This document shows, one piece after another, positions 7,544 to 13,897 of a DNA stretch of 64,000 nucleotides. A program made the translations under genes and the position numbers. Source of the DNA: Serratia marcescens (GTDB lineage Bacteria; Pseudomonadota; Gammaproteobacteria; Enterobacterales; Enterobacteriaceae). The stretch's first letter is position 1, and each line of letters opens with the position of its first letter. The stretch lies in assembly GCF_006715005.1 (NCBI RefSeq), contig NZ_VFMJ01000001.1:2418001-2482000 (forward strand). Direction: 5' to 3'. The notes under the pieces were generated by a model. The model was not told the DNA's origin. It saw only the letters and a program-made list of their open reading frames with translations, and did not search any database.

Positions 7544-8140
7544 TCACCCCGCAAAATTCATCAGCTGCGCCGCGGCGTTCTCGGCCTCCTCATGGGAGCG
7601 AAACGGCTTGTGCAGGATCCAGCGCCATAAAACATCGAGTGCAGCTTTGTACAGCTGATGGAACTCGGTTTCGTCCATGTTGGCGAACGCGATGCTGCGG
7701 GGGTGTTTGCGGAGAGTGCCGTCGGGGAGTTGGATCGCGTCATAGTGACCGGCTTCAACCGTCACCCACGCGCGATAGGCGTCAAATGATTTGCAGGCGC
7801 TAATGCTGCCGGCGCGCCGATCGGCGACGCGCTCAAGATACTGCTCGGCGGCATCTAGCAGCGCCGATTCATTGCCGCCGAACGTAGCCAGGAATCTGGC
7901 GTAGCCGGTAACCAGTTTGCGCTCGTTCGTGGAGATAGCACCGCCGGTAGGCTCCCAGTATTCGAATCCCAGATTGAGAAGCGCGAAAAATCGACGGTGA
8001 AACGCCGGGTTGCGCACCTTTTTAAAATCGGCCACCAGCACGGCGCCGAGCTTGCAATTGTTTTGCAGAAATTCGCTGGTCTCGGGCGTGGCCGGGATCA
8101 GTATTCCTGATGACTGCTTGATGAGTTGTAACTGCGCCAT
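7544..8140 (-). CDS. DUF1367 family phage protein
   Basis: This 198-residue protein matches the DUF1367 pattern I know from lambdoid nin regions. It shows ADFKKVRNPAFHRRFFALLN, FEYWEPTGGAI, KSFDAYRAWVTVEAGHYD and MDETEFHQLYKA. Function is unknown; co-occurrence with NinB/NinG-type genes suggests a role in recombination or replication. It lies between the LexA-regulated small gene and the YbcO-like nuclease, probably in one transcript ending with Q. Confidence 0.8.
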   Translation of the reverse strand: MAQLQLIKQSSGILIPATPETSEFLQNNCKLGAVLVADFKKVRNPAFHRRFFALLNLGFEYWEPTGGAISTNERKLVTGYARFLATFGGNESALLDAAEQYLERVADRRAGSISACKSFDAYRAWVTVEAGHYDAIQLPDGTLRKHPRSIAFANMDETEFHQLYKAALDVLWRWILHKPFRSHEEAENAAAQLMNFAG

Positions 8141-8182: not shown

Positions 8183-8422
8183 TTAAGTGAGTCTATCAGA
8201 ATTTATCTTGCGAAGACCGGCCCGCTCTAAAATTTGCGTTATCAGCTTTGGCGTGCCGACGATGTCTTCTGGCTGTAGCGGCATGAAGGAGAGCTGATCG
8301 CCCCGTCGGTACATCAACGCCCGCTCGCAAACGGGGAAATTTTTGAATCTGGCAACCACTGCATCATCCATGCAGCGCACGACTTTGTACCCTCCTGGGG
8401 GCGTGTTTTGTAATCCGGTCAC
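8183..8422 (-). CDS. LexA-regulated small protein of unknown function (antirepressor candidate)
   Basis: This 79-residue protein, beginning MTGLQNTPPGGYK, belongs to no family I recognise. The start is GTG at 8422 with AGGAGG five bases upstream, one of the strongest translation sites in the prophage. It is the first gene after a promoter with a near-consensus SOS box (8512-8531), so it should be made after DNA damage. The prophage repressor (13040-13432) lacks a self-cleavage domain. A LexA-controlled antirepressor, as Tum in phage 186 or AntC in N15, would explain induction. That role is inference; no sequence similarity to Tum or AntC is claimed. Confidence 0.6.
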   Translation of the reverse strand: MTGLQNTPPGGYKVVRCMDDAVVARFKNFPVCERALMYRRGDQLSFMPLQPEDIVGTPKLITQILERAGLRKINSDRLT

Positions 8423-8511
8423 CTCAACCTCCTTTGCTGTGTGTAATTTGGCTTAGTAACGCTTTGTTTTTTATTGATTACTAATTCTGCTCTCACAGCC
8501 TAACGCCAAAA

Positions 8512-8531
8512 TACTGTTTATTTGTACAGTA
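8512..8531 (-). promoter_or_regulatory. LexA (SOS) box
   Basis: TACTGTTTATTTGTACAGTA is a 20-bp site with the CTGT-N8-ACAG core of the LexA consensus and perfect TACTG/CAGTA flanks. It starts three bases downstream of the -10 of the candidate promoter at 8534-8562, an ideal place to block transcription. Confidence 0.85.
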
Positions 8532-8533
8532 TA

Positions 8534-8562
8534 ATTATGGTTAGAATAATTTGAGTTTGCAA
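8534..8562 (-). promoter_or_regulatory. Promoter of the LexA-controlled unit
   Basis: On the minus strand TTGCAA (8557-8562) and CATAAT (8534-8539) are 17 bp apart and are followed immediately by the LexA box. The transcript would cover the 79-residue gene, the DUF1367 gene, the YbcO-like gene and Q, with no terminator seen between them. Confidence 0.65.
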
Positions 8563-8563
8563 G

Positions 8564-8589
8564 CAAAGAAAAGGCCCTTTGCGGGCCTT
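8564..8589 (-). terminator. Terminator of the early leftward operon
   Basis: On the minus strand AAGGCCC and GGGCCTT pair around GCAAA, followed by TTCTTT. It closes the early transcript just after lar and just before the LexA-controlled promoter. Confidence 0.75.
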
Positions 8590-8609: not shown

Positions 8610-8822
8610 TCAATCATTTTCTTTTGAATTTAGACCGTTAGCGCCGTCAGTCGTGCGTTGGTTCCAAAGGTCTACAGCATCGTCATGATACCCATTCGGA
8701 CCACGGGCGCCGCACGACAAGCAGAGGACTTGCCATCCGAGAAGATTGCAGCGGTGCTGCAGCTGCACGTTCCCATTTCCATGCACACCGCAGAACGGGC
8801 ATGGCTTCAGTTCACTTTTCAT
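8610..8822 (-). CDS. Lar family restriction alleviation protein
   Basis: This 70-residue zinc protein has two CxxC knuckles, CPFCG near the N-terminus and CLSCG about 28 residues later. The typical Lar ending GYHDDAVDLWNQR follows. Lar/RalR of the Rac prophage moderates type I restriction by stimulating host modification. The start at 8822 has GGAG eight bases upstream and overlaps the end of the preceding 47-codon gene, giving coupled translation. Confidence 0.82.
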   Translation of the reverse strand: MKSELKPCPFCGVHGNGNVQLQHRCNLLGWQVLCLSCGARGPNGYHDDAVDLWNQRTTDGANGLNSKEND

Positions 8823-12139: not shown

Positions 12140-12706
12140 TTACATGCAGCCGCTGAACATCGCCGCGGCGCTGGCCATAACGGCCGCCCATCTGTCCGGT
12201 GGCGCCAGGCGCACCAGCGACTCGATACCCTCGCGGATCTCTTTCTCCAGCTCGCGCAGCGGTGCGCCGAGCAATGCCGCCTGTTTGGCGTCCGCGCATT
12301 CTTTGATGGCGTCGGCCACCAGCTCGAGCTTGGTTTTCCCCTGCTTCAATCCGTATTTTCTGGCGATCTCGATCGGCATCACGTCAGCGATCACCGGCGC
12401 CAGCTGCAGGACATAGCCAGCGTATTTCTCTGTACGGTTCGGGTTGTCTAACCAGCGGAAGATGTTCTGTCGGTTGTTGCGCTCAATGTCGCCCAGTTGG
12501 AGGCCTTTTCCGCCACGCCGGAACCATTCATCGGTGACCAGCTTGGCGATGGTCTCCTGCGCCCGGCCCGGCAGCGTGCTCTGCCATTCCTCAACAGCTT
12601 GGCGGACGGCATCAGGTTTTACTGTTCGGCGTCGGGCTGAAGACTGATTCCCTGAACTCAGCCGCTGGCCACCTGCCCTGATAACATCTTGAAATGTTAA
12701 TGACAT
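12140..12706 (-). CDS. YdaT-like protein (CII-type regulator)
   Basis: This 188-residue protein resembles the YdaT 'toxin' domain family of Rac-type prophages. An N-terminal helix pair precedes WFRRGGKGLQLGDIERNNRQNIFRWL, a DNA-binding-like segment, and a helical tail follows (APLRELEKEIREGIESL). Work on Rac-type prophages indicates that YdaT can act like lambda CII, as a transcription factor. It starts 2 bp after the YdaS-like gene, matching the ydaS-ydaT order. Confidence 0.75.
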   Translation of the reverse strand: MSLTFQDVIRAGGQRLSSGNQSSARRRTVKPDAVRQAVEEWQSTLPGRAQETIAKLVTDEWFRRGGKGLQLGDIERNNRQNIFRWLDNPNRTEKYAGYVLQLAPVIADVMPIEIARKYGLKQGKTKLELVADAIKECADAKQAALLGAPLRELEKEIREGIESLVRLAPPDRWAAVMASAAAMFSGCM

Positions 12707-12708
12707 GG

Positions 12709-12936
12709 TTAAGCCTCGTTTTGGGGTAACCCATCAGTCGGGTTTGGGTAAAGGTCAGGGCGCAGTTCGTGGGGGGTCACGCCTGTAACATTAAAAATTG
12801 GGAACACTCGATCAGCTGGGACAAGCCCTTTATAACGATTCTTCCAATGGCTAATCGTCATGGACGAAATCCCAAGCTGACTCGCCAATTTGGTAGCGCT
12901 GCCTGCTGCACAAATGGCTTTTTCTAAAGCACTCAT
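12709..12936 (-). CDS. YdaS-like Cro-type repressor
   Basis: This 75-residue helix-turn-helix protein has the core ATKLASQLGISSMTISHWKNR followed by LVPADRVFPIFNVTGVTPHELRPDLYP, the usual YdaS ending. GGAG six bases before the ATG at 12936 decides the start over an in-frame ATG at 12948. It is the first gene of the leftward early operon and divergent to the repressor, the position of cro. Confidence 0.85.
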   Translation of the reverse strand: MSALEKAICAAGSATKLASQLGISSMTISHWKNRYKGLVPADRVFPIFNVTGVTPHELRPDLYPNPTDGLPQNEA

Positions 12937-12964
12937 AGGTATCTCCATAGGTTTGACATGCCAA

Positions 12965-13039: not shown

Positions 13040-13432
13040 ATGAAAGGAAAAAACCACCAGATTGAGCACCCTCAGATAAGGCGCTTAAATGAACTTATGA
13101 CGCTGAAAGGTATCTCCAAGGCGGAGATGGCCAGGATAGCTGGCGTGAGTCCACAATCGGTTAACAATTGGTTTTTACGAGGGACGGTTGGGAAAAACTC
13201 AGCGTTAAAACTATCCGAAGCCCTTGGCGTTTCTGTTGCTTGGCTGCTTGGCGAGGATGTCGATGAAAATACCGGCCTTGCTCCCAATGAGGTTCAGATG
13301 CTTGAGCTATTCCGCCAACTTCCACCGGCAGAACAAGAGCGCATGATCGACCTCTTCCAACTGCGGCTGAAAGAGATCGATGATTACGTTGAGAAGTACC
13401 TTCGCGGGCGGTATAAGCCGGTTGGAGAATAA
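13040..13432 (+). CDS. Prophage repressor, short type without peptidase domain
   Basis: This 130-residue protein has a clear N-terminal helix-turn-helix at residues about 24-55 (ISKAEMARIAGVSPQSVNNW), then SEALGVSVAWLLGEDV typical of CI-like repressors. A short helical C-terminus of about 55 residues completes it. It lacks the S24 autoprotease domain of lambda CI, so it cannot be cleaved through RecA. Length and partner genes recall RacR of the Rac prophage. It is divergent to the YdaS-like gene with operators between, and heads an operon with two AT-rich genes. Confidence 0.87.
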   Translation: MKGKNHQIEHPQIRRLNELMTLKGISKAEMARIAGVSPQSVNNWFLRGTVGKNSALKLSEALGVSVAWLLGEDVDENTGLAPNEVQMLELFRQLPPAEQERMIDLFQLRLKEIDDYVEKYLRGRYKPVGE

Positions 13433-13435
13433 TAC

Positions 13436-13897
13436 ATGGCAACAGACTTAGTATGCTTTGCATACCCTTCGTTGTTACGCCCGGGAATGAGGGCAGGTGG
13501 AATTTATCAGCCAGAGCCATTGATTGCTGACGTAATCACAGGGGATAAATACACCTTGATAGTTACGGCTGGTTTAGCGCTAACCGTTGGAAAACAAATA
13601 ACTACTGAGATTGATATCTTGTTCGAAAATTCATCAGTCATAATCGATGAGCACAGTAATGCAAATGGTTATTTGGAAAATCCTTTTTCAGAGGTAACTG
13701 ATGATTTTAAAGTGGTTTATCTCTCGTCTATGTTTGTCAAAAACGTAACTTTCCCCAGGCATGGTTGTTACACCATAAGGGTAAGCCTTTACATGACTAA
13801 CGCTGAGGGTGATAAAATTTCCCCTCCAATAGACCAGCTTGATACCTACTTTTACGTTTCTTCAGTCAGCGGGAGGCGAGATGGGGCAGCTTTATAA
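13436..13897 (+). CDS. Unknown protein in the repressor operon (lysogeny-expressed moron)
   Basis: This 153-residue soluble protein begins 3 bp after the repressor stop with GGAG upstream of its ATG. It is predicted to be mostly beta strand (KYTLIVTAGLALTV, TTEIDILFENSSVII, CYTIRVSLYM) with no catalytic motif I can see. The layout faintly recalls DUF6941 beta-sandwich proteins. The gene is AT-rich compared with the prophage average. Co-transcription with the repressor means it should be made in the lysogen, the usual setting for superinfection exclusion or defence genes; its role is unknown. Confidence 0.6.
   Translation: MATDLVCFAYPSLLRPGMRAGGIYQPEPLIADVITGDKYTLIVTAGLALTVGKQITTEIDILFENSSVIIDEHSNANGYLENPFSEVTDDFKVVYLSSMFVKNVTFPRHGCYTIRVSLYMTNAEGDKISPPIDQLDTYFYVSSVSGRRDGAAL

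Follow-up and report, generated by a model that had tools for sequence, protein, structure and literature searches.

In a 64-kilobase stretch of the Serratia marcescens genome (contig NZ_VFMJ01000001.1; this whole stretch is called the window below), a prophage carries a small gene of 79 codons with a GTG start at positions 8183 to 8422 of the minus strand. In all likelihood this gene encodes an antirepressor of the type of GfoA of the Salmonella prophages Gifsy-1 and Gifsy-3, which LexA would silence, which would be made after DNA damage, and which would lift the prophage's repressor of 130 residues off its operators. A LexA box and a promoter precede the gene, its product is homologous to GfoA, the gene order is conserved among related phages, and the window has no repressor with an S24 peptidase domain. 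From these sequences we infer LexA binding in vivo, binding of the antirepressor to the repressor, and induction of the prophage by the predicted antirepressor. We regard the gene as very likely a new member of the GfoA-type antirepressors, found here in an operon without dinI.

The promoter, the LexA box, the ribosome-binding site and the gene all lie on the minus strand. The promoter (8534 to 8562) is sigma-70-like, TTGCAA-17-CATAAT, and identical hexamers are seen in an alignment with close relatives that carry dinI. It overlaps a LexA box (8512 to 8531, reading TACTGTACAAATAAACAGTA on the minus strand) that lies immediately 3' of the -10 hexamer, and a ribosome-binding site, AGGAGG (8428 to 8433), also kept in close relatives, precedes the GTG codon. 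The preliminary description had named the promoter, the box, the AGGAGG, the GTG frame and a prophage repressor of 130 residues, a helix-turn-helix (HTH) protein, and all of these are indeed where it had placed them. In the lysogen, LexA bound to the box would keep the promoter silent. Upon DNA damage, RecA would prompt LexA to cleave itself, the promoter would open and the protein of 79 residues would be made, which would bind the repressor, a protein with no S24 domain, and remove it from its operators, allowing the lytic programme to be expressed, including cro, cII and the replication genes.

Comparison of the protein with known families places it beside GfoA. It matches the PHROG 1813 profile over residues 4 to 74 of 79 (E value 3.1e-30), so the earlier description of an orphan gene with 79 unfamiliar residues does not hold, although PHROG 1813 is catalogued as being of unknown function. 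Eighteen phage records match at an E value of 1 or less, although chance may account for the weakest of them. Aeromonas phage pAEv1818 comes closest, at 94% identity, and the homologues from phages SPN3UB and Chris1 are 62 to 64% identical in the same search; in a multiple alignment the values are 95% for pAEv1818 and 58% for SPN3UB. Few of the host's relatives have a member of the family, which was found in five of the 148 genomes searched, the window's own genome included. We recovered the GfoA sequence from public prophages by means of the published gfoA cloning primer, which identified 42 prophage stretches, and found that GfoA matches PHROG 340 (E value 7.7e-21) and also PHROG 1813 (3.6e-11). 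The window protein and GfoA are 33% identical over 70 residues by BLASTP (E value 4e-10 for this single comparison), and alignment of the two families with hhalign gives a probability of 98.6 over 74 columns (E value 7.8e-16, again for a single comparison). A new antirepressor family, as the preliminary description had proposed, is ruled out by this homology and by the match of GfoA to PHROG 1813, as the antirepressor activity of GfoA was shown in 2011 (PMC3121763). Its other proposal, that LexA controls an antirepressor whose target is a non-cleavable repressor, is by contrast well supported by the homology to GfoA, the gene order and the counts of LexA boxes and short repressors given below. 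Membership in DUF3850 (PF12961) was considered and rejected, the score of 17.5 bits being below the Pfam cut-off of 22.9, and the search for relatives among solved structures gave nothing meaningful (best E value 0.44).

The LexA box stands out both in the window and in the genome. It is the sole site in the window with three or fewer mismatches to TACTGTATATATATACAGTA (0.00 expected from 100 shuffles) and the single exact match to CTGT-N8-ACAG, a pattern that is not above chance in the window when one mismatch is allowed (11 found, 14.9 expected). In the genome of 5.57 megabases, TACTGT-N8-ACAGTA occurs perfectly seven times, this box included; allowing up to one mismatch gives 18 sites, compared with one for a reversed control pattern. 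We inspected the neighbours of 13 of the other 17 sites; seven match models for UmuC, HumD/UmuD, SulA, RecA, RecN, YebG and DinI, these matches resting on the first 62 to 70 residues of each gene. LexA-type boxes are also found at C1:2737741 and C1:5241197, each 21 bases before nearly the same GTG frame of 63 codons (L167 and L161).

Related loci, which were gathered by protein and not by LexA box, were taken as PHROG 1813-type when their best tblastn match was to the protein of the window, of SPN3UB or of Chris1, rather than by scanning each member against PHROG profiles; the viral relatives among them include the best 80 of 316, many nearly identical. Requiring at least 400 base pairs of upstream sequence (which removed L055, L130, L054 and L027) and leaving out two distant PHROG 1813 members in which the box was not found (L056 and L059), we counted a LexA box with at most one mismatch within 420 base pairs upstream in 97 of 98 loci, and an exact box in 84. 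Counted per distinct protein, the figures are 46 and 40 of 47, compared with 35 and 4 of 1446 control stretches of 420 base pairs taken from other parts of these proteins' loci. Among the GfoA-type loci, the 42 that extend far enough upstream, encoding 13 distinct proteins, all have an exact box; these loci are close kin, having been retrieved with a single exact pattern of 18 bases.

The gene order also argues for an antirepressor. The antirepressor that brings about induction of Salmonella's Gifsy prophages is a small protein with a GUG start codon, encoded between dinI and irsA (PMC3121763). The order of LexA box, dinI where present, GTG gene and irsA agrees with the Gifsy operon, and close phages of the window's prophage have the LexA box, dinI and the gene, followed in pAEv1818 and SPN3UB by an irsA-like DUF1367 gene. 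The window has such a gene (7544 to 8140, minus strand; NinB/Orf PHROG) directly downstream of the antirepressor gene and probably co-transcribed with it; that the irsA of the Gifsy phages would itself be a DUF1367 gene is suggested by its position and homology. The usual Gifsy feature of dinI as first gene of the operon, seen in 87 of the 98 related loci, is absent from the window, where alignment with dinI-bearing relatives reveals a 5' remnant of about 40 bases (8456 to 8496, minus strand), the remainder having been deleted. The loss has made the antirepressor gene the first behind the LexA promoter. A frame of 25 codons starting at 8496 crosses the remnant and stops over the antirepressor start, and it has no clear ribosome-binding site.

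Loss of dinI is seen elsewhere in the family. The same form with a remnant of about 40 bases is present in L065, L067 and L068, and another six loci (L105, L127, L135, L137, L145 and L150) have no dinI, the box starting 40 to 86 base pairs before the aligned protein start. Box and antirepressor gene are thus both kept in 10 of 11 dinI-less loci, the window included, with L155 the exception. This pattern agrees with the report, in PMC3121763, that deletions of dinI or irsA had no significant effect on the induction of Gifsy-1 and Gifsy-3, and because of that report we have not treated dinI as a defining feature of the operon. The same observations bear on an explanation that gives the gene a lesser part, in which the LexA promoter chiefly serves the nin-type genes (irsA/DUF1367, followed by antitermination), with the small protein either a passenger or a replacement for DinI as an SOS modulator. 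The irsA-like gene is, after all, immediately downstream, and DinI, an SOS modulator, is encoded in the same operon in most related loci. We nevertheless consider this explanation unlikely, as GfoA, to which the protein is homologous, is sufficient to induce Gifsy-1 and Gifsy-3 (PMC3121763), neither dinI nor irsA was needed for induction to any significant extent in those deletions, and the loci that have lost dinI have nearly all kept the box together with the antirepressor gene.

The proposed target of the antirepressor is the repressor of 130 residues encoded at 13040 to 13432 of the plus strand, which has an HTH head and a short conserved tail. Domain searches found HTH-type domains alone (HTH_3 in the head) and no S24 peptidase, in agreement with the preliminary description on both its length and its missing peptidase, and a structure search returned as its sole match the head of the 434 repressor. 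Having no S24 domain, the repressor should escape cleavage. There are nine S24 matches in the genome and none within the window. We hand-picked 46 viral records from 81 viral loci, thinning those that were nearly identical or short and including none of the 14 genome-contig loci, and found a full-length short repressor (E value 1e-43 or less) in 42 of the 46 records, all of which bear the gene. The contigs of the other four (G148, G158, G179 and G190) end 2.1, 1.6, 4.9 and 3.1 kilobases upstream of the gene, and so stop before the place that the repressor takes in the window, 4.6 to 5.0 kilobases upstream. S24 matches occur in six of the 46 records, and in five of these they are frames of 133 to 156 residues, the size of UmuD, alongside a short repressor in the same record. 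In a Pfam search, HTH_3 was found in 50 of 50 repressors (126 to 146 residues), and S24 is absent among the 25 families to which the list was limited. Of 93 loci reaching 7 kilobases or more upstream, 12 yielded no repressor (L078, L099, L095, L128, L134, L139, L150, L151, L152, L154, L155 and L058), and for the first six of these the short repressor is present in the whole record.

We also considered whether the antirepressor chiefly targets the repressor of another prophage, with the window's prophage being induced in some other way. The same genome contains two identical copies of a repressor of 141 residues with a related tail (L180 and L181, at C1:5442453 and C1:5484524), with no listed LexA box nearby, and these could possibly be targets in trans. 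There is a precedent in FsoA of Fels-1, which acts on Gifsy-2 (PMC3121763). The gene and a short repressor, however, occur together in 42 of 46 records, and the window contains neither an S24 protein nor a second gene of this antirepressor family, and we therefore judge an arrangement of this kind very improbable. That box and gene are decayed remnants whose function was lost after the deletion of dinI, as the reduction of dinI to a remnant might suggest, is scarcely credible, given that the promoter, box and ribosome-binding site are kept and the reading frame is intact, that L065, L067 and L068 have the same arrangement, and that L061 and another five loci encode a version of the protein with a single residue changed.

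Several results weigh against a GfoA-type antirepressor under LexA control. The window protein reaches only an E value of 0.088 against PHROG 340, GfoA's own family, and a sequence relation to GftA, the second Gifsy antirepressor (PHROG 4847), is undetectable (hhalign probability 0.1). No LexA box was found in the 800 to 900 base pairs upstream of the gene in L056 and L059, so that LexA control is not universal in PHROG 1813, and L155, where the gene is truncated, has none either. The figure of 42 short repressors in 46 records is not fully independent, since some of these records had gone into building the repressor model. In record G158, whose contig is cut 1.6 kilobases upstream of the gene, there is no short repressor, and S24 frames of 222 and 237 residues lie 35 to 46 kilobases away from the gene; no S24 frame of more than 156 residues was found in the other 45 records. 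As to the two distant members, L056 (Salmonella ZC-S1_prp) and L059 (Actinobacillus pPE4) are without dinI as well as without a recognisable LexA box, and it is possible that they are under the control of some other signal.

The repressors of these phages are built from a variable head and a conserved tail, and this raises the matter of which part the antirepressor recognises. Among phages with window-type antirepressors (at least 80% identical to the window's; 14 distinct combinations), the repressor heads fall into two classes that are 19 to 30% identical, and across these two classes the tails are 80 to 91% and the antirepressors 86 to 100% identical. When the GfoA-type phages (14 combinations, not counting L037) are compared with the window's class, the heads are 46 to 77%, the tails 39 to 56% and the antirepressors 30 to 35% identical. 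The division of the repressors into head and tail leaves out L144 and L059 (partial repressors) and L114 (in which the motif did not split the repressor). In 45 collapsed triples, the partial correlation of antirepressor with tail given head is 0.39 (p 0.0002), and that of antirepressor with head given tail is -0.08. As controls, DinI and tail give 0.03 (36 triples, the antirepressor giving 0.36 on the same triples), and IrsA and tail give 0.26 (p 0.0094, 22 triples), a weak link, the antirepressor giving 0.76 on these.

We tentatively suggest, with the doubt that such correlations call for, that the PHROG 1813 antirepressors may recognise the shared C-terminal tail of the repressor and not its head, so that heteroimmune phages that swap heads would share an SOS-made inducer and be cross-inducible. 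If the antirepressor docks on the tail, that segment, LFRQLPxAEQERMIDLFQLRLKEIDDYVEKYLRGRYKP, could be regarded as a detachable "inducibility module". Because the correlation tests ignore phylogeny, we keep this as a working hypothesis, and a drop of the partial correlation of antirepressor with tail to 0.09 (p 0.076) within PHROG 1813 (n = 35) counts against it. A strict pairing of antirepressor and tail is undone by that weak value, by Chris1-type antirepressors, which are alike and yet paired with two classes of repressor tail, and by L037; we accordingly hypothesize a docking site with fairly broad recognition. The last of these loci, L037, has a mixed pair, a GfoA-type antirepressor with an SPN3UB-type repressor. 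GfoA acts on two repressors of different operator specificity (Lemire et al., PMC3121763), and this fits docking on the tail. No such proposal was met in the available part of PMC3121763 or in literature searches on the question. If it is true, prophages with different operators share one inducer, and the split of the repressor into head and tail makes tail docking by antirepressors a specific, testable question.

A terminator-like stem-loop (8571 to 8589, minus strand; one found, 0.5 expected) lies directly upstream of the SOS promoter, and one has also been described just upstream of the SOS promoter in the Gifsy phages (PMC3121763). A Lar-type restriction alleviation gene (8610 to 8819) adjoins the SOS promoter on the upstream side. 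Divergent from the repressor gene is a Cro-like HTH gene of the YdaS family (12709 to 12948, minus strand), and a CII-like activator gene of the YdaT family is at 12140 to 12706 (minus strand). Directly 3' of the repressor gene, at 13436 to 13897, is a gene for a protein of 153 residues that has no match in Pfam, PHROG or NCBIfam at an E value below 0.02.

Tum of phage 186 and AntC of phage N15 are LexA-controlled antirepressors, and Tum is a protein of 146 residues, one half of which is DinI-like. The window protein is unlike Tum in this respect, as it has no match to a DinI or Tum domain in Pfam or NCBIfam. GftA of Gifsy-2 has the same operon position, size and GTG start as the window protein, with no detectable relation in sequence. 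Two further antirepressors act on short repressors: FsoA of Fels-1 on that of Gifsy-2 (PMC3121763), and Rem of the E. coli Qin prophage on DicA (PMC10448788), Rem having been discovered by PSI-BLAST searches started from GfoA (PMC10448788). A Fels-1 open reading frame of 78 residues (L060:3494-3730), presumably FsoA, is in PHROG 340 with GfoA. The closest parallel among characterized systems is with GfoA and GfhA, the LexA-controlled antirepressors of Gifsy-1 and Gifsy-3 (Lemire et al. 2011, PMC3121763), which are homologous to the window protein over most of its length, at about 80 residues, and share with it a non-ATG start, a LexA box, a place before irsA and an immunity region whose short HTH repressor is not cleaved. 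The Gifsy antirepressor binds that short repressor and strips it from the DNA (PMC3121763), and the absence of Gifsy-1 phage from one Salmonella strain has been reported to be explained by a base difference in its dinI-gfoA promoter (PMC5322425). The two systems differ in that identity is 33%, GfoA has its best match in PHROG 340 and the window protein in PHROG 1813, dinI has been lost in the window, the start is GTG there and TTG in most GfoA copies, and the repressor tails are of different classes. The hypothetical proteins gp59 of Salmonella phage SPN3UB and gp32 of Aeromonas phage pAEv1818 are direct homologues encoded in the order LexA box, dinI, gene and irsA, unlike the window in having dinI. 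PHROG 1813 thereby gains a likely function, and the Gifsy mode of induction, from LexA through an antirepressor to a repressor that is not cleaved, would extend to a lineage in which dinI has been lost from the operon.
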